Source of the DNA: an uncultured Merdimonas sp.
GTDB lineage: Bacteria > Bacillota > Clostridia > Lachnospirales > Lachnospiraceae
Length of the DNA stretch: 40,255 bases
Assembly: GCA_944378225.1 (NCBI GenBank)
Contig: CALWGE010000023.1
Coordinates: forward strand, 1 to 40,255
Reading direction: 5' to 3'
Part shown: piece by piece, positions 3,090 to 40,255 of the stretch
Numbering within the stretch: position 1 is the stretch's first letter
How the letters are laid out: the number at the start of each line of letters is the position of its first letter
Translations under genes and position numbers: made by a program
The notes under the pieces: model-generated
The model's input: the letters and a program-made list of their open reading frames with translations, nothing else
Told to the model about the DNA's origin: nothing
Databases searched by the model: none

Positions 3090-3183
3090 AAAAAAAGCTA
3101 ACCTCCAAGCATGTCATGCCCAGACGGTCGGCTCCTCATCCCTTATACTCCCTGTGGTTTCTTCCACTTCCGTCAGTCGTATA
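3090..3183 (-). ncRNA. ZTP (pfl) riboswitch with overlapping intrinsic terminator
   Basis: The minus-strand leader shows the pfl/ZTP pattern. A 5' half (about 3180-3149) has CGACTGACGG, then GTGG and CCAC arms, then AGGGAG. The 3' half contains CCGTCTGGGC (3118-3127), the hallmark pseudoknot strand. Directly after it a terminator hairpin can form: AGCCGACC (3126-3133) pairs with GGTTAGCT (3096-3103) with one mismatch. The inner CTGGGCAT region pairs with ATGCTTGG, and seven Us follow (3090-3096). The pseudoknot strand lies in the 5' arm of the terminator, so ligand binding should block termination, an ON switch. It precedes purO and the AICAR transformylase gene, whose substrate ZMP is the ligand. 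Family recognition is by motif; folding was done by eye. Confidence 0.88.
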
Positions 3184-3192
3184 ATTGATTTT

Positions 3193-34100: not shown

Positions 34101-34160
34101 AAAGACCCCGTCGATTGAATCTTGTTTTATTATCGGATTCGAATCGACGGGGTTTTATTT
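34101..34160. terminator. Bidirectional terminator between convergent genes
   Basis: ACCCCGTCGATT (34105-34116) and AATCGACGGGGT (34142-34153) form a perfect 12-bp stem. On the plus strand it is followed by TTTTATTT and on the minus strand by CTTTTT. It serves the methyltransferase gene and the leftward ECF operon. Confidence 0.9.
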
Positions 34161-34192: not shown

Positions 34193-34753
34193 TTATTCCT
34201 TTGTCAGGCTGCCTTTCTTGGATCTGCTTCTGCTGTACAGAAGAAGCAGAACAGTTCCGATTACGCCTGCAGAAATTGCGTTGCAGACAGCAGCTACAAT
34301 TCCCTGTGTAAATACATAATTTACAGGCTCGGCATATACTACGATATCCAGAACAGGAGCGACAACTACCCAGGAAATAATGTTAGCCAGAACCTGGTAA
34401 ACATTAAACCGTACAATGTCTGCTTTACCAAACTCGCCTTCCTCAATCTTCATTTTCGGGTATACCAGACCTGTAATAAAGCAGGTAAGAGCACTGGCTA
34501 CAACCCAGCTCCACCAGGGAGAACCATACAGGATTGCATCAGACAGACCGTGCCCGATAAAACCGATCAGCAGTCCGGCAATCGGTCCGAACAGAGCTGA
34601 AAAGAAAGCGCCCACACCGTAAGCAGTCTTGATGTCTGTCTCCGGAATACCGGTGGGAATCTTCACGTACATAAACAGTACGATGAACAGAGCCGCGCCC
34701 AGTCCTGTGGCTACGATCGTTTTGGTATTGAAGTCAAACAGTTTCTTTTTCAT
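34193..34753 (-). CDS. ECF transporter S component (UPF0397-like)
   Basis: This 186-aa membrane protein has about five to six helices. It begins with a basic segment, then ATGLGAALFIVLFMYVKIP, PETDIKTAYGVGAFFSALFGPIAG and GHGLSDAILYGSPWWSWVVAS, which match UPF0397-type substrate-binding S components. These are often annotated as riboflavin-type, but the real substrate is not known. The ATG at 34753 has AGGTG-type site 7 nt upstream. It is the last gene of a minus-strand operon that supplies its own T component and ATPase, so it is likely a dedicated system. The two DUF62 genes in the operon suggest an adenosyl- or SAM-linked substrate, which is inference. Confidence 0.85.
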   Translation of the reverse strand: MKKKLFDFNTKTIVATGLGAALFIVLFMYVKIPTGIPETDIKTAYGVGAFFSALFGPIAGLLIGFIGHGLSDAILYGSPWWSWVVASALTCFITGLVYPKMKIEEGEFGKADIVRFNVYQVLANIISWVVVAPVLDIVVYAEPVNYVFTQGIVAAVCNAISAGVIGTVLLLLYSRSRSKKGSLTKE

Positions 34754-34892
34754 TCAAATACACCTCCGCTTGTGTAAATATATATTTCTGCAGACGGATT
34801 TTCCGGATGCAGAATTAACAGCAGAACGGCTCCTCTGACAGAAGCCTGTTTTCTGCTATTAATCAGAGTAAAGCAGCCTGTCTGCCGCAGGT

Positions 34893-35738
34893 TCAGGCCT
34901 TAGTAAAGGTTACCGTCCATTCGGGACCATAGGAAAGCTGATATTTATCGGAAAAGCTGCCCTGAGATACAGCCATGGCTACCTTGACCAGCTCATTGTT
35001 GTAGATCATGGGAGCGCCTTTTTCTGCAAAGCCAAAACTCTTATGGAAAAGCACATCCTGTTCAAAGACAGGAGTTCCCTCATGTCTGACTACGGTATGA
35101 ACCATATCGCCATAGGAGAAGCCGGCATTCTGGAAGTCTTTCAGCGGAATGTTCGTCCACAGGTTCCCGAAGTTCGGATCATTGATTTCAAAAATTCCTT
35201 CTGCTTTTCCCTCTGAAATAACGGGTTTCAGAATCGGGTGTTCTACAATTTCCTCTACCGGATATTCCGGTCCTACACCTTCAAAATCGATAATTCCGCT
35301 GGCAAGGCGGGCAGCGGTATAGCCAAAGAGATCTCTTCCGTGGAAGATGGCTACTTCTTCTGTGCCCTTTCCTCTGAGACGGTTTACGGTTTCATCAATT
35401 TCACGTACAGCTTCGATACCGATAAAGCGTTTTATATGTGTCAGAGAACCATTATCCGGAGATACTACGTAATGGCCATCCTTAGTTTTTGCAACGCAGG
35501 CTCTGCGGCTTGTTCCCACGCCCGGGTCCACAACAGATACATAAATGGTTCCTTCCGGCCAGAAGGGAAGACTCTGATACAGACGGTAGCTTGCGCTCCA
35601 GGTATCGTACTGAGGCAGCTCATGGGTGCCATCCATAATTTCAAGTTCGCGGTCCACACTCTTTACGACACCGTACATGGAGCTGACAGCACCTTCTTTG
35701 TATGTAAAATCAGTCTGAAAAACAAGAATCGGTTTCAT
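34893..35738 (-). CDS. SAM hydroxide adenosyltransferase family protein (DUF62), copy 1
   Basis: This 281-aa protein belongs to the SAM hydroxide adenosyltransferase/halogenase family, whose usual members hydrolyse SAM to adenosine and methionine. The hydrolase triad Asp-Arg-His appears as Asp71 and Arg78 in VVDPGVGTSR and His133 in FHGRDLFGY. The N-terminal SAM loop is altered: TDFTYKEG (9-16) where copy 2 has SDFGTADG, so a loop glycine and an aspartate (now Glu15) are changed. The N-terminal domain ends near 170 and a beta-barrel C-terminal domain follows. Start 35738 has GGAGA 5 nt upstream. It sits between the T and S genes of the ECF transporter. Confidence 0.88.
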   Translation of the reverse strand: MKPILVFQTDFTYKEGAVSSMYGVVKSVDRELEIMDGTHELPQYDTWSASYRLYQSLPFWPEGTIYVSVVDPGVGTSRRACVAKTKDGHYVVSPDNGSLTHIKRFIGIEAVREIDETVNRLRGKGTEEVAIFHGRDLFGYTAARLASGIIDFEGVGPEYPVEEIVEHPILKPVISEGKAEGIFEINDPNFGNLWTNIPLKDFQNAGFSYGDMVHTVVRHEGTPVFEQDVLFHKSFGFAEKGAPMIYNNELVKVAMAVSQGSFSDKYQLSYGPEWTVTFTKA

Positions 35739-35768
35739 AAAAATCTCCTTTCCTGAATTAAAATTCTA

Positions 35769-36602
35769 TTAAATAAATGGGTTATAGAATCTGGATCCGT
35801 TTACAAAAACGGATACGCAGACAGAACCGGCCAGAATAGCGGCAGAAAACAGCATGGCAATATAGTCATTTCTGCCCAGGGGCTTTCCGGCGTACCAGGT
35901 TCTCTTTTTGTTCTTTCCAAAGCCGCGCAGATCCATGGCATTACTGATAAGTTCAATTCGATCCAGGGTAGTAAAAATCAAAGGAACAAAAATATTCATC
36001 ATATTTTTTACCCGGGTGCTGAGCTTTTCCTTTTTGGACAGATCCAGACCGCGGCTCTGCTGGGCCAGGGAAATATCCTGGTAATCCCGGATCATATCCG
36101 GAAAATAACGCAGAGTCAAGGCAAGTGCATAGGAAGCCTTATAGCTTACGCCGATACGGTTCAGGGATGCGGCAAATTCGCTGGGATTGGTAGTCAGAAG
36201 AAAAATCATACCCAGCGGAATACCGGAAGCATACTTCAGAATTTTTGTAACCTGGTAAAGAAGCTGCTCCAGAGTCACTGTATACCGGCTGTTAAAGCGG
36301 AAAATTTCGTGTGTCGTTCCATAAATCTGCGTTCCGTACTGAGGGCTGAACAGATAAGTCAGCAGAAAATTAATAAGCAGGAAGACAGCTACATAGATAA
36401 CCATGGTACGTACCTGCCGGAACGTAATCTCTGAAATCCGGAAAAAGCAGAAAGAAACTGCCAGTACAAAAAGAATATACCGGATGTCATAGGAAAACAT
36501 TACGGAGAAGGTGAGGCATATAAAGGCCATAAGTTTTGTCAGCCCGGAGAGGTTATAGACAAAATTATCTCTGTCTATATAATCAAACAGCTTCGCTTTC
36601 AT
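35769..36602 (-). CDS. ECF transporter T component (EcfT)
   Basis: This 277-aa membrane protein has about five helices and couples the ATPases to the S component. The two cytoplasmic coupling motifs are QSRG (182-185) and MDLRG (223-227), matching the family's XRG pattern. The start at 36602 is the ATG after AGAGGGGG; an earlier reading from 36680 lies well inside the ATPase gene. It overlaps the ATPase gene end by 20 nt, implying coupled translation. Confidence 0.9.
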   Translation of the reverse strand: MKAKLFDYIDRDNFVYNLSGLTKLMAFICLTFSVMFSYDIRYILFVLAVSFCFFRISEITFRQVRTMVIYVAVFLLINFLLTYLFSPQYGTQIYGTTHEIFRFNSRYTVTLEQLLYQVTKILKYASGIPLGMIFLLTTNPSEFAASLNRIGVSYKASYALALTLRYFPDMIRDYQDISLAQQSRGLDLSKKEKLSTRVKNMMNIFVPLIFTTLDRIELISNAMDLRGFGKNKKRTWYAGKPLGRNDYIAMLFSAAILAGSVCVSVFVNGSRFYNPFI

Positions 36603-38316
36603 TTCGTCTTGTCCCCCTCTCATAATCAATGAAATTCTGTACAAAAGAGGACGGATCCTCAATTCCTGTTTTAAGGGCAAGTTCGTACAGAGAAGTAATC
36701 TTCAGATTTGCCTGGGCCGCAATGTCTTCGCTGGTCAGTATCTCCACAGAATCTGAGTCGCCAATCTTCTGACCGCCGGAAATAACAATTGCGTGAGGTG
36801 TATACTCCAGCATTAGGTGCATGTCATGGGTAATCATGAGAATTGTTACGCCCTGACTGTTCAGGCTCTTTAAAAACTCCATAATTTCCGTGTAATGGTG
36901 ATAGTCCTGTCCTGCTGTGGGTTCATCCAGAATAAGAATCCGGGGTTCAAGAACAAGAACGGAAGCAATGGTGACACGTTTTTTCTGGCCAAAGCTCAGA
37001 GCAGATACAGGCCATTTTTTAAAGGGAGACAGTCCGCATATTTTCAGTGCTTTTTCTACCTTTGGCTCGATTTCTTCCTCAGGTACGCCGCGGATACGCA
37101 GTCCCAGGGCCACTTCGTCATAAATCATGGGCTTACAGATCATCTGATTGGGATTCTGCATAACATAACCTATTTTTTCGGAACGCTCTTTGATCGTCCA
37201 TCCCGACATGTCTTCCTGACCATAGAACAAATGTCCCTGATCTTCTTTTACAAATCCGCAGATCAGCTTGGCCAGGGTGCTCTTTCCGGCTCCGTTTGTT
37301 CCTACAATACTGACCATTTCACCTTCACGTATGGAAAAACTGATGTCCTGCAGAATTTTTCTTTTCTTTGTATATTGAAAATGAATTCCGTCTGCTTTCA
37401 GAAGAACCGGCCGGTCTTCTGTTTTTTTCTGTTTTTTCTGTGCCCGGTTCCAGGCCAGAAGAGGTTCCCGGATCTGTTCTGTGTCCAGGGTCTCCAGTCT
37501 TCCTGCATGAAGTTCCGGTGTTACTTGAATTCCGGCGTATTTCAAAGCTGTAACGTACAGAGGCTCCCGGATTCCAAGACCGGGAAGAATATCGGCAGCC
37601 ATCAGTTCATCCGGTGTCATATCTGCGGCAATCCGTCCGTCACTGACTACGATAATGCGGTCTACATCCCGGTAAAGCACATCCTCCAGACGATGCTCGA
37701 TGATGATTACTGTTTTTTCCTGATCCCGCCATACGCGGTCAATCAGATCAATAGCTGTTTTGCCGGTGGCCGGATCCAGGTTTGCCAGGGGCTCGTCGAA
37801 GAGAAGAATATCCACATTATCGACCATGACGCCTGCAAAGGAAACACGCTGTTTCTGGCCTCCGGAAAGTTCAAAGGGAGAAGATTTCAAAAGCTGTCCC
37901 ATATCCACAATATCTGTAACAGCCTGTACCGTTTTTTTCATGGTGTTCAGGTCTACACAGTCATTTTCCAGAGCAAAAGCCACATCTTCTCCCACGGTCA
38001 GTCCTACAAACTGACCGTCCGAATCCTGAAGAACTGTTCCAACCATTTTGGAAATCTGAAAAATATCCAGATCTTTTGTCTCATGACCCATGATTTTCAG
38101 ACTTCCCTTTATCTCTCCTTTATAGGAAAAAGGAATCAGGCCGTTCAGACAATGTCCAAGCGTACTTTTTCCGCTTCCGCTGGGACCTACAAGCAGGATT
38201 TTTTCTCCCTTGTGGATTGTCAGGTTAATATCATGGAGAGTAGGTTCTGCCTGGCTGAAATATTGAAACTGAAAGTCCTTAAATTCTATGACTGGTGTTT
38301 TATTCTGATCACCCAT
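36583..38316 (-). CDS. ECF transporter ATPase, two ABC domains fused
   Basis: This 577-aa protein contains two ABC ATPases in one chain instead of separate EcfA1 and EcfA2. Domain 1 has Walker A GPSGSGKS (44-51), signature LSGGQ (150-154) and Walker B LLFDEP (170-175). Domain 2 has Walker A GTNGAGKS (339-346), an altered signature LSFGQ (440-444) and Walker B LILDEPTAGQ (461-470). A linker rich in Lys and Gln (about 290-305) joins them. It starts after GGGGGA. It is the second gene of the operon, 26 nt after DUF62 copy 2. Fused ATPases are typical of dedicated YkoD-like ECF systems. Confidence 0.93.
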   Translation of the reverse strand: MGDQNKTPVIEFKDFQFQYFSQAEPTLHDINLTIHKGEKILLVGPSGSGKSTLGHCLNGLIPFSYKGEIKGSLKIMGHETKDLDIFQISKMVGTVLQDSDGQFVGLTVGEDVAFALENDCVDLNTMKKTVQAVTDIVDMGQLLKSSPFELSGGQKQRVSFAGVMVDNVDILLFDEPLANLDPATGKTAIDLIDRVWRDQEKTVIIIEHRLEDVLYRDVDRIIVVSDGRIAADMTPDELMAADILPGLGIREPLYVTALKYAGIQVTPELHAGRLETLDTEQIREPLLAWNRAQKKQKKTEDRPVLLKADGIHFQYTKKRKILQDISFSIREGEMVSIVGTNGAGKSTLAKLICGFVKEDQGHLFYGQEDMSGWTIKERSEKIGYVMQNPNQMICKPMIYDEVALGLRIRGVPEEEIEPKVEKALKICGLSPFKKWPVSALSFGQKKRVTIASVLVLEPRILILDEPTAGQDYHHYTEIMEFLKSLNSQGVTILMITHDMHLMLEYTPHAIVISGGQKIGDSDSVEILTSEDIAAQANLKITSLYELALKTGIEDPSSFVQNFIDYERGTRRNESEAV

Positions 38317-38342
38317 GTTTAAATCCCCCGTACGGCAGTTTA

Positions 38343-39209
38343 TTAATCTTCGTAAATCAGGCGCGGCGCTTTTCGAATGGTGATTCGCCAGTTGGTGCCG
38401 GTTCCGATATTGTATGCTCTTGCAAAGCTTCCCTGGTTAATCGCCACTGCCATACAATCCAGACTGTTTACGTAGACAAGCGGTTCTCCCACGTAGACAT
38501 CGGCAAAGCTTTTTGCATAAACAAGAATATTTTTGTAAAGAGTTCTTGTCTCGTTTTCAATGCTGATTTCGACTCTTCCTCCGTGCTTTACGCCCAGCTT
38601 CAGGAACATTTCTCTGGTGATATTTGTCCAGAGGCTTCCGAAGCGTACGTCGAGTACGTCAATGGTGCCGCTTACTTTGTCGCCGTCACAGACAGGCTCC
38701 ACGATAGGAAGCTCAATTACACTGTCCGGATCCACTTCAGGACCTGTCTGGTCAAAGGAAATGATACCGGAAGCAAGCCGGGCGCCTGTATAGGCGTAAA
38801 TGTCTCTTCCATGGAAAGTATAGCTTTCACCCGAATTAGGCAGACGGTTTATAGTCTCATCAATAATTCTGGCTTCTTCAATACCGATGATTCGTTTTAC
38901 GTGAGTAAGGGTGCCATTGTCCGGCGTGACAATATACTGTCCTGTTTTTGTCTTTACAGCGATGCTTCTTCTCGTAGAGCCTACGCCCGGGTCCACGACA
39001 CTCACAAAGACAGAACCTTCCGGCCAGTAGCTTACAGTCTGAATCAGGCGATAAGAAGCCTCCCAGATATCATACTGAGGAATCTCATGTGTCAGATCTG
39101 AAATTTTCAGATCCGGATGAACTCCGTAAGCAACTCCGTACATGGCGCTGACTGCCCCGTCTGCTGTTCCGAAATCTGACTGCAGAATAAGTGGTTTCAT
39201 CATTTTCAT
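38343..39209 (-). CDS. SAM hydroxide adenosyltransferase family protein (DUF62), copy 2
   Basis: This 288-aa protein is a paralogue of copy 1 and keeps the full family pattern. The SAM loop is SDFGTADG (11-18), as in halogenase-fold enzymes. Asp73 and Arg80 lie in VVDPGVGSTR, and His133 in FHGRDIYAY, the triad of SAM hydrolases. It probably converts SAM and water to adenosine and methionine. Start 39209 has AAAGGA 5 nt upstream; another Met follows at 39203. It is the first gene of the ECF operon, directly behind the promoter at 39264-39292. Confidence 0.9.
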   Translation of the reverse strand: MKMMKPLILQSDFGTADGAVSAMYGVAYGVHPDLKISDLTHEIPQYDIWEASYRLIQTVSYWPEGSVFVSVVDPGVGSTRRSIAVKTKTGQYIVTPDNGTLTHVKRIIGIEEARIIDETINRLPNSGESYTFHGRDIYAYTGARLASGIISFDQTGPEVDPDSVIELPIVEPVCDGDKVSGTIDVLDVRFGSLWTNITREMFLKLGVKHGGRVEISIENETRTLYKNILVYAKSFADVYVGEPLVYVNSLDCMAVAINQGSFARAYNIGTGTNWRITIRKAPRLIYED

Positions 39210-39263
39210 CTCAATCCTTTTCGCGCTAAGGATCCGCACTTACACGAATCCTTGCATCTTTCA

Positions 39264-39292
39264 AGTATAATGATTTGTCGGGATAGTGTCAA
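39264..39292 (-). promoter_or_regulatory. Promoter of the ECF-DUF62 operon
   Basis: Perfect -35 TTGACA (39287-39292), 17-nt spacer and -10 TATACT (39264-39269) on the minus strand. About 55 nt separate it from the start codon. I see no riboswitch motif in the short leader, so the operon seems strongly and perhaps constitutively expressed. Confidence 0.85.
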
Positions 39293-39463: not shown

Positions 39464-39505
39464 CGTTCCCGAGGTGATTCGAACACCCGACCTACCGCTT
39501 AGGAG
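39464..39505 (-). tRNA. 3' fragment of tRNA-Arg (CCT), probable attachment-site repeat
   Basis: The minus strand reads from the anticodon loop CTCCTAA to the discriminator base: it contains AGCGGTAGGTC, then the T-arm GGGTGTTCGAATCACC, then CGGGAACG. This is 42 nt, tRNA positions 32-73. The upstream sequence (GGCCAT) does not complete the anticodon stem and no GTTCCCG acceptor arm lies upstream. It is therefore a fragment that marks the left junction of an element integrated in a tRNA-Arg gene. An intact tRNA copy is expected at the far end of the element. Confidence 0.88.
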
Positions 39506-39556
39506 ATGGCCCCAAGCGACATAAGCACTATCAAGCGAGTATAAAAAAACCAAGAG

Positions 39557-39851: not shown

Positions 39852-39887
39852 CATATCTAAAACTCAGAGTGAAACGAGGTGAAAATG

Positions 39888-40255
39888 ATGAATACGCAAA
39901 TCATCGCCATCGCCAATCAGAAAGGCGGTGTGGGCAAAACAACGACCTGTGCGAATCTGGGCATTGGGCTTGCACAGGCCGGAAGAAAAGTGCTGCTGAT
40001 CGACGGAGATCCGCAAGGCAGCTTGACCATCAGCCTGGGCCACCCTCAGCCGGATAAGCTGCCCTTTACTCTCTCTGATGCTATGGGCCGTATCCTGATG
40101 GACGAACCGCTGCGCCCCGGCGAGGGTATCCTGCATCACCCGGAAGGCGTTGACCTGATGCCCGCTGACATCCAGCTTTCCGGCATGGAGGTTTCTCTGG
40201 TGAACGCTATGAGCCGAGAGACTATCCTGCGGCAATATCTGGACACGCTCAAGGG
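39888..40255 (+). CDS. ParA-family ATPase of the integrated element (C-terminally cut by window end)
   Basis: The first 122 residues are present. They contain the deviant Walker [12 protein letters not shown] (residues 10-20), then [10 protein letters not shown], characteristic of ParA/Soj partition ATPases. The chromosomal ParA at 28671 reads IDIDPQGNAT in the same place, so the two are related but distinct. ATG at 39888 is 7 nt after GAGGT; an ATG one codon earlier is possible. Codons such as CTG, GGC and CGC dominate, unlike the chromosomal genes in this window, which suggests transfer. Plasmid-like partition genes are common in Firmicute conjugative elements. Confidence 0.9.

Follow-up and report, generated by a model that had tools for sequence, protein, structure and literature searches.

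The described transporters closest to the one studied here are the methionine-regulated energy-coupling factor (ECF) transporters. The name MtsA, borne by their substrate-specific (S) component, is said to derive from comparative genomics by Rodionov and colleagues, and we take MtsB to be a fused ("duplicated") ATPase. Because "substrate-specific component MtsA of methionine-regulated ECF transporter" is already an annotation name (PMC9423846, PMC5066943, PMC5408102), an ECF transporter with S and T components tied to methionine is a known kind. The published passages that carry the name mention neither a DUF62 protein nor a cargo, and the likeness to our transporter rests on description. The operon analyzed here lies in 40,255 nucleotides of DNA from an uncultured Merdimonas sp. 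(contig CALWGE010000023.1; hereafter the window) and combines a complete ECF transporter with two DUF62 genes, HAT1 and HAT2. A sequence-only reading of the window had regarded the substrate of its S component as not established. That caution holds in so far as we reach S-adenosylmethionine (SAM) by inference, while the link to a named methionine-regulated transporter had been missed.

DUF62 enzymes use an Asp, an Arg and a His in catalysis. P. horikoshii PH0463, M. jannaschii MJ1651 (for which an R89A mutant structure is deposited) and S. tropica StDUF62 share both domains, the fold and the catalytic residues with HAT1 and HAT2. The two HATs differ in belonging to importer-tied subfamilies that stand apart from the ordinary DUF62s of our phylum sample, and in the methionine-supply role that we propose from their sequences and surroundings. 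StDUF62 is reported to hydrolyze only the (R,S) epimer of SAM, which few enzymes use (PMC12120602). As described in published passages, the QrtT-QueK-QueL queuosine salvage system likewise places an ECF S component beside enzymes that degrade an imported nucleoside; the ECF core is shared, whereas the cargo, the preQ1 riboswitch control and the unrelated enzymes are its own (PMC11477304). The riboflavin S component RibU resembles ours in fold but has weak sequence similarity to it. Additionally, ribU is described in Firmicutes as being under FMN riboswitch control (PMC4418817), whereas no such riboswitch was found in the window or the related stretches scanned and methionine regulation is seen in relatives.

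We lean slightly towards reading the operon as a methionine-salvage importer that would take up SAM and have it split by the two DUF62 hydrolases into methionine and adenosine. That SAM is the cargo, and that the operon serves the window's species in this way, are what we infer from the comparisons below. As far as our searches tell, the dedicated DUF62 pair, the T-box leaders with an AUG codon upstream of DUF62 genes and the SAM-salvage reading are new. Literature searches, which left most subscription journals uncovered, found no paper joining ECF transporters with DUF62 or SAM hydrolase and none on UPF0397, which we take to be the PRK13661/NF010182 family of the S component.

All five genes of the operon were found on the minus strand (window positions 34193-39203; Table 1), in the order HAT2, fused ATPase, T component, HAT1 and S component and with a promoter upstream, just as the sequence-only reading had described. 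The T component (PF02361) and two ABC_tran domains thus stand in one operon with S, as in an ECF transporter, and the T and ATPase genes share a 23-base overlap. The HAT2 open reading frame opens at a GTG (39239), and the ATG at 39203 agrees with relatives. A promoter scan found 11 sites where shuffles gave 8.1 on average, and the operon promoter ties for the best. The draft genome (94% complete, in 138 contigs) yielded no DUF62 gene besides HAT1 and HAT2; metK is present elsewhere in it.

To describe how often these genes travel together, we used three draws of genomes: 200 from the window's family, its own genome included and the same set searched for S and DUF62; 117 from a second family, that of G490, probably Streptococcaceae; and 299 from the phylum. 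In the window's family S scored over its cut-off in 36 genomes and DUF62 in 17, all 17 being among the 36. The DUF62 gene is clustered with S in 15 of these 17; in G077 it lies with the ATPase (A) and T genes while S is on a separate contig. The second family carried DUF62 in 46 genomes and S in 57, again with every DUF62 genome among the S genomes. Here S lies downstream of DUF62 on the same strand in 46/46, 387-692 bases past the end of the N-domain match. Hypergeometric values for this co-occurrence (5e-15, 2e-22) ignore kinship and are not taken as probabilities. In the phylum draw, DUF62 was found in 16 genomes, S over cut-off in 10 and both in 6. Nine of the genomes with DUF62 and without S have ordinary DUF62s, 26-37% identical to the nearest HAT reference and with no adjacent S; in one of them, G267, a different contig gives an S-like match below the threshold. 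Counted over HAT-type DUF62s, genomes that also carry S number 17/17, 46/46 and 6/7 in the three draws.

A fourth sample came from a scan of named genomes with the HAT2 alignment, which gave at least 577 relatives in 589 candidate stretches and from which the window's own genome and very close ones may be missing; we retained the best 80, nearest to the window HAT2. In 64 of these best 80 loci the fetched stretch includes at least one of S, A and T, with S truncated by a contig end in one case; under a stricter S-length limit the count is 63, of which 60 have S. The survey of operons joining DUF62 to a UPF0397-type S component, proposed earlier as the test of the arrangement, therefore shows it to be conserved. 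The nearest listed relatives of the window HAT2, at 94-90% identity (L152-L157), are Mediterraneibacter and Candidatus Mediterraneibacter, which makes a gut member of the Lachnospiraceae the probable host. Gene order varies: the window's relatives have HAT2-A-T-HAT1-S; bacilli, Gemmiger/Fournierella and several genomes of the G490 family have HAT2-S-A-T; and G332, G387 and G412 have S-A-T-HAT1-(GNAT)-HAT2.

In S. suis the MtsA gene is reported to follow a locus tag called "DNA-directed RNA polymerase subunit delta" (PMC9423846). The PDB gives the same name to 7ccg, a chlorinase of DUF62 fold, and from its position the S. suis gene may be a misnamed DUF62-fold protein. The shared misnomer had suggested that 7ccg itself was the streptococcal DUF62 beside MtsA; this was rejected, as 7ccg is the chlorinase ClA1 from soil bacteria.

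The regulatory link to methionine comes from relatives. T-boxes sense uncharged tRNA, and the codon at a defined position of the leader is the specifier codon. Eleven of 13 named Bacillaceae loci, as well as G338 and G551, have a T-box leader no more than ~350 bases upstream of HAT2. Seven of these 13 leaders were found by Rfam at its curated threshold and six by pattern only, and the operons are HAT2-S-A-T. None was found in L224 (Rfam or pattern) or in L218 (pattern alone). The search with the T-box core pattern gave 15 matches, and those in L054, L067, L183 and L213, with two mismatches each, were taken as chance. In all 13 leaders an AUG codon ends ten bases before the end of the conserved GAGC/GAGT, and most have one extra base between the preceding GAA and the AUG. 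The sole other T-box seen in these loci (L215) has UAC at the specifier position. Since T-boxes report uncharged tRNA, operons with AUG leaders should switch on when methionine is lacking.

Neighboring genes point the same way at some loci where S has no DUF62. These S-only loci were examined gene by gene in part, and neighbors were put to Pfam selectively, so that the neighbor cases given here and below are examples and not rates. Behind an S-A-T set in G041 come metF, a gene for a methionine-synthase activation-domain protein and metH. In G504 and G520, ~50 bases separate S from a MetI-type permease gene ahead of it, and a MetN-type ATPase (with a NIL domain in G520) and NlpA/MetQ lipoproteins are also encoded before S. 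In G142, S-A-T belongs to a same-strand run that opens with a MetN-type ATPase (NIL domain), a MetI-type permease and an NlpA lipoprotein. Against NCBIfam, methionine models were best for the MetN, MetI and MetQ proteins, all below curated cut-offs. No SAM riboswitch was found at the S-only loci scanned, 10 of the 19 in the window's family and seven others. We consider the evidence for a methionine role of the HAT2-S-A-T operons in relatives to be strong.

Signs of adenosine handling occur as well. In one of the 80 loci (L183, an Oscillibacter metagenome-assembled genome, MAG), genes for a LacI-PfkB protein, HAT2, HAT1, a nucleoside hydrolase (PF01156), a PfkB kinase, S, A and T are consecutive; the hydrolase, of IunH type, had no NCBIfam match at 1e-20. 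Directly upstream of HAT2-S-A-T, a Treponema MAG (L220) carries genes for a PnrA-type (PF02608) binding protein, ATPase and permease; in L193 a PnrA-type binding protein is encoded downstream of S. Of the 12 genomes of the G490 family examined, two (G490 and G589) have a PNP-family gene just before A and T. The earlier suggestion of uptake with processing of an adenosyl group, or with release of adenosine and methionine, has thus gained support on its methionine side from the AUG leaders and methionine-type neighbors and, in few loci, on its adenosine side, with SAM a proposed cargo. In five spirochaete loci (L199, L216, L217, L225, L228), HAT2 follows the genes of a binding-protein ABC importer with no ECF gene in the stretch; the importer is recognized by family-3 binding proteins in L216 and L225 and by permease and ATPase in L217 (all Pfam), and otherwise by BLAST label or position. 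A HAT2 behind an unrelated ABC importer is what one would expect if HAT2 acts on imported cargo.

SAM_HAT_N and SAM_HAT_C both scored over their Pfam cut-offs in HAT1 and HAT2. In a tree of 85 DUF62 sequences (161 before removal of near-copies), 9 ordinary and 76 HAT-type proteins separate with support of 100/100; within the latter, HAT1 (99/99) and HAT2 (100/96) form separate groups and the G400 protein falls outside both. The tree is unrooted, contains no characterized enzyme and carries warnings, as long branches meet (three ordinary rows against HAT-type rows) and one row, L178, is long. We compared residues in 20 HAT1, 54 HAT2 and 9 ordinary sequences, with L178 and L117 kept out of the groups. 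Conservation across all three groups extends to D10, D71, R78, the HGRD histidine and other core residues, and the catalytic D71, R78 and H133 (HAT1) or H131 (HAT2) are at least 85% conserved in each. In G114 (L067), a Tyr replaces the HGRD histidine of HAT2. Seven positions distinguish HAT1 from HAT2, with nearly fixed differences including F138/Y136, A142/G140 and G236/A234. The VVDPGVGxxRR motif is kept in both, while chlorinases in PDB alignments read VYPETGT there. An AlphaFold2 (AF2) model of HAT1 resembles structures of DUF62 proteins, chlorinases and fluorinases; built on a 14-row alignment (pLDDT 80), it is informative on fold alone. Because the core residues and the motif lost in chlorinases are kept, both copies look like working hydrolases and not halogenases, their hydrolase activity being predicted from homology. 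Halogenases producing 5'-halo-adenosines, suggested by family kinship with SalL and the fluorinases, can practically be dismissed given the retained motif and H131/H133 and scores of 56 and 108 bits on the fluorinase model TIGR04507 against a cut-off of 400.

In the model that we favor, S would bind extracellular SAM, most usefully the mixture of sulfonium epimers that forms from free SAM, the A-A-T motor would drive its import, and HAT1 and HAT2 would cleave it with water to methionine and adenosine. By analogy with the published StDUF62 results, DUF62 would act on the (R,S) epimer only and the cell's own SAM would be spared (PMC12120602). This specificity matters to the model, since destroying working (S,S)-SAM under methionine shortage would harm the cell. 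Import followed by cleavage would account for the methionine control, the adenosine-handling neighbors and the association of this DUF62 group with importers. It is a doubtful extension that HAT1 and HAT2 divide the epimers between them, one taking (R,S)-SAM and the other (S,S)-SAM or a broader set, so that racemized extracellular SAM would be fully used.

A number of observations weigh against SAM salvage. Both HATs fall under the NCBIfam (R)-SAM hydrolase equivalog cut-offs (118 and 145 bits against 350 for NF058624, 93 and 110 against 470 for NF053629) and are not filed there. As published, StDUF62 loses much of its activity under physiological salt conditions, and the authors of that study question whether its physiological function is to hydrolyze (R,S)-SAM (PMC12120602). 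The adenosine-type neighbors occur in few loci. One HAT2 (G198) stands alone, away from S; G400 has a HAT2-like gene (51% identity) and no strong S; and 16 of the best 80 HAT2 loci lack S, A or T nearby, five of them Eisenbergiella, five spirochaete and several on short contigs, as judged on the fetched stretch and not on whole genomes. The methionine leader is absent at the window operon, where the scan of the window found no T-box or riboswitch; regulation of the MtsABC type was seen only in relatives, and thus the methionine role reaches the window only through them. Additionally, metK is present in 57/57 S genomes of the G490 family and over cut-off in 32/36 of the window's family, so S is no replacement for SAM synthesis. 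Absence of metK as a sign of SAM dependence was accordingly not borne out. The genomes with no strong metK match were G023, G033 and G170 (none) and G114 (weak), with completeness of 60, 90, 79 and 98%, and were not used. In G114, which has S and DUF62, the weak match (E 1.5e-6) may reflect an assembly gap or a SAM-dependent organism.

The distribution of S also has to be set against SAM salvage. S occurs without DUF62 in 19/36 S genomes of the window's family and 11/57 of the G490 family, and S with and without HAT intermix on a tree of S proteins that holds 58 of 77 non-redundant sequences together with that of the window. Well-supported branches force at least 7 changes of state, with 9 in the best tree and 18.9 in shuffles. 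The cargo of S must therefore be useful without HAT; directly usable SAM fits this, and methionine fits too. Here lies the main rival explanation, which we regard as possible but rather unlikely: S would import methionine or a precursor (methionine sulfoxide, S-methylmethionine or homocysteine) and the DUF62s would regain methionine from damaged SAM of the cell itself, the (R,S) form, the two sharing a regulon and not a substrate. The T-boxes report methionine need only, S without DUF62 sits beside metF-metH and MetQ-MetN-MetI-type genes, and states mix closely on the tree, all as this rival would have it; removal of (R,S)-SAM by DUF62 has also been proposed in print (PMC12120602). However, the operons of G504 and G520 would then hold two methionine importers. 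The rival also leaves unexplained why related HAT2s stand beside two unrelated types of importer, why HATs pair so closely with S in all three draws and why there are two DUF62 copies.

Less probable again is another adenosyl or thionucleoside cargo, such as methylthioadenosine, S-adenosylhomocysteine or decarboxylated SAM, to which the DUF62s would have drifted. The nucleoside-handling neighbors in a few loci and the nearly fixed differences between HAT1 and HAT2 could be taken this way, but the core residues equal those of ordinary DUF62s, and methionine regulation fits SAM best. DUF62 chemistry requires a good sulfonium leaving group, which also counts against such a cargo.

The database labels would make the operon a riboflavin importer with the DUF62 genes as bystanders, which we consider very improbable. 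S scores 160.9 bits against PF07155 (cut-off 26.7) and 231.5 bits against NF010182, the PRK13661 model (cut-off 99), which NCBI names "ECF-type riboflavin transporter substrate-binding protein". The AF2 model of S (mean pLDDT 95) has the S-component fold, and its best Foldseek match is T. maritima RibU (E 2e-4, TM 0.63), the only chain with E <0.001. However, RibU, FolT, BioY and ThiT resemble it with similar TM-scores (0.56-0.67), and the S profile found no RibU chain in the PDB at E up to 1. The riboflavin transporter structure 3p5n is found by the single S sequence (E 0.0048) and not by the profile, and was not counted as evidence. Scans of the window and of 53 related stretches, some centered on HAT2 rather than S and some overlapping, gave no FMN riboswitch, and relatives carry methionine T-boxes. 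The "riboflavin" label on S is thus not supported, nor is the flavin option of the earlier reading. Asp72, Trp80 and Trp83 are invariant among 34 S sequences; an Asp in the membrane part of S would suit a cation.

Further features were noted in the window and in related operons (Table 1). An inverted repeat between the convergent S and methyltransferase genes, flanked by A-rich and T-rich stretches, is probably a two-way terminator; the terminator scanner did not list this stem as such and the arms were located separately. Far from the operon, a ZMP/ZTP riboswitch scored over the Rfam threshold. On the promoter side, an open reading frame resembling a ParA-type ATPase (by eye) runs past the window end, adjoined by tRNA-like letters where ARAGORN makes no call; together they may possibly mark the edge of a mobile element beside the operon. 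In several relatives a GNAT fused to GntR/UTRA lies between HAT2 and the ATPase (L075, L079, L081, L088 and others), and separate GNAT and GntR genes occur in the G015 and G387 operons. The GNAT part of the fusion had no match in the window's genome. Operons of the divergent S clade carry M20-type peptidase or deacylase genes, and in L066 an aminotransferase-fold pyridoxal phosphate enzyme follows HAT2.

Table 1. Positions of the operon, its flanking features and selected features of related loci
Feature	Position	Strand	Basis and remarks
Sigma-70-type promoter, TTGACA-N17-TATACT	window 39264..39292	-	11/12 consensus positions; just upstream of operon
HAT2: DUF62 / SAM hydroxide adenosyltransferase, subfamily 2	window 38343..39203	-	Pfam; D71, R78, H131 kept
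Fused (duplicated) ECF ATPase	window 36583..38316	-	577 aa; two ABC domains (ABC_tran) and DUF3744
ECF T component	window 35769..36605	-	CbiQ family, PF02361
HAT1: DUF62 / SAM hydroxide adenosyltransferase, subfamily 1	window 34893..35738	-	Pfam; D71, R78, H133 kept; AF2 fold
ECF S component, MtsA-like, labelled riboflavin	window 34193..34753	-	PF07155 / NF010182; AF2 S-component fold
Inverted repeat, probable two-way terminator	window 34106..34152 (arms 34106-34116, 34142-34152)	.	A-rich and T-rich flanks
ZMP/ZTP riboswitch	window 3111-3190	-	Rfam, 58.8 bits
ParA-type ATPase-like open reading frame	window 39887-40255	+	by eye
tRNA-like letters	window ~39465-39520		adjoin ParA-type frame
Spirochaete importer and HAT2 stretches	L217 1157-4549; L225 1505-4052		Pfam
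T-box with UAC	L215 16656-16876		
GNAT-GntR/UTRA fusion	L075 8567-10093; L081 10869-12395; L088 9705-11273		between HAT2 and ATPase
M20-type peptidase or deacylase	L066 9733-11139; L067 5826-7274; L181 6728-8089		divergent S clade

A group of DUF62 proteins is now linked with an importer and, through the leaders of 13 operons, with a shortage of methionine, which gives an orphan enzyme family a testable role. If SAM salvage is correct, a cargo would be assigned to an orphan ECF transporter and its automatic "riboflavin" label corrected, and Lachnospiraceae, bacilli, probably streptococci and others would have extracellular SAM as a source of methionine. Should HAT1 and HAT2 also divide the epimers, gut bacteria would share SAM as a nutrient, and the physiological role so far missing for this DUF62 clade would be methionine salvage.

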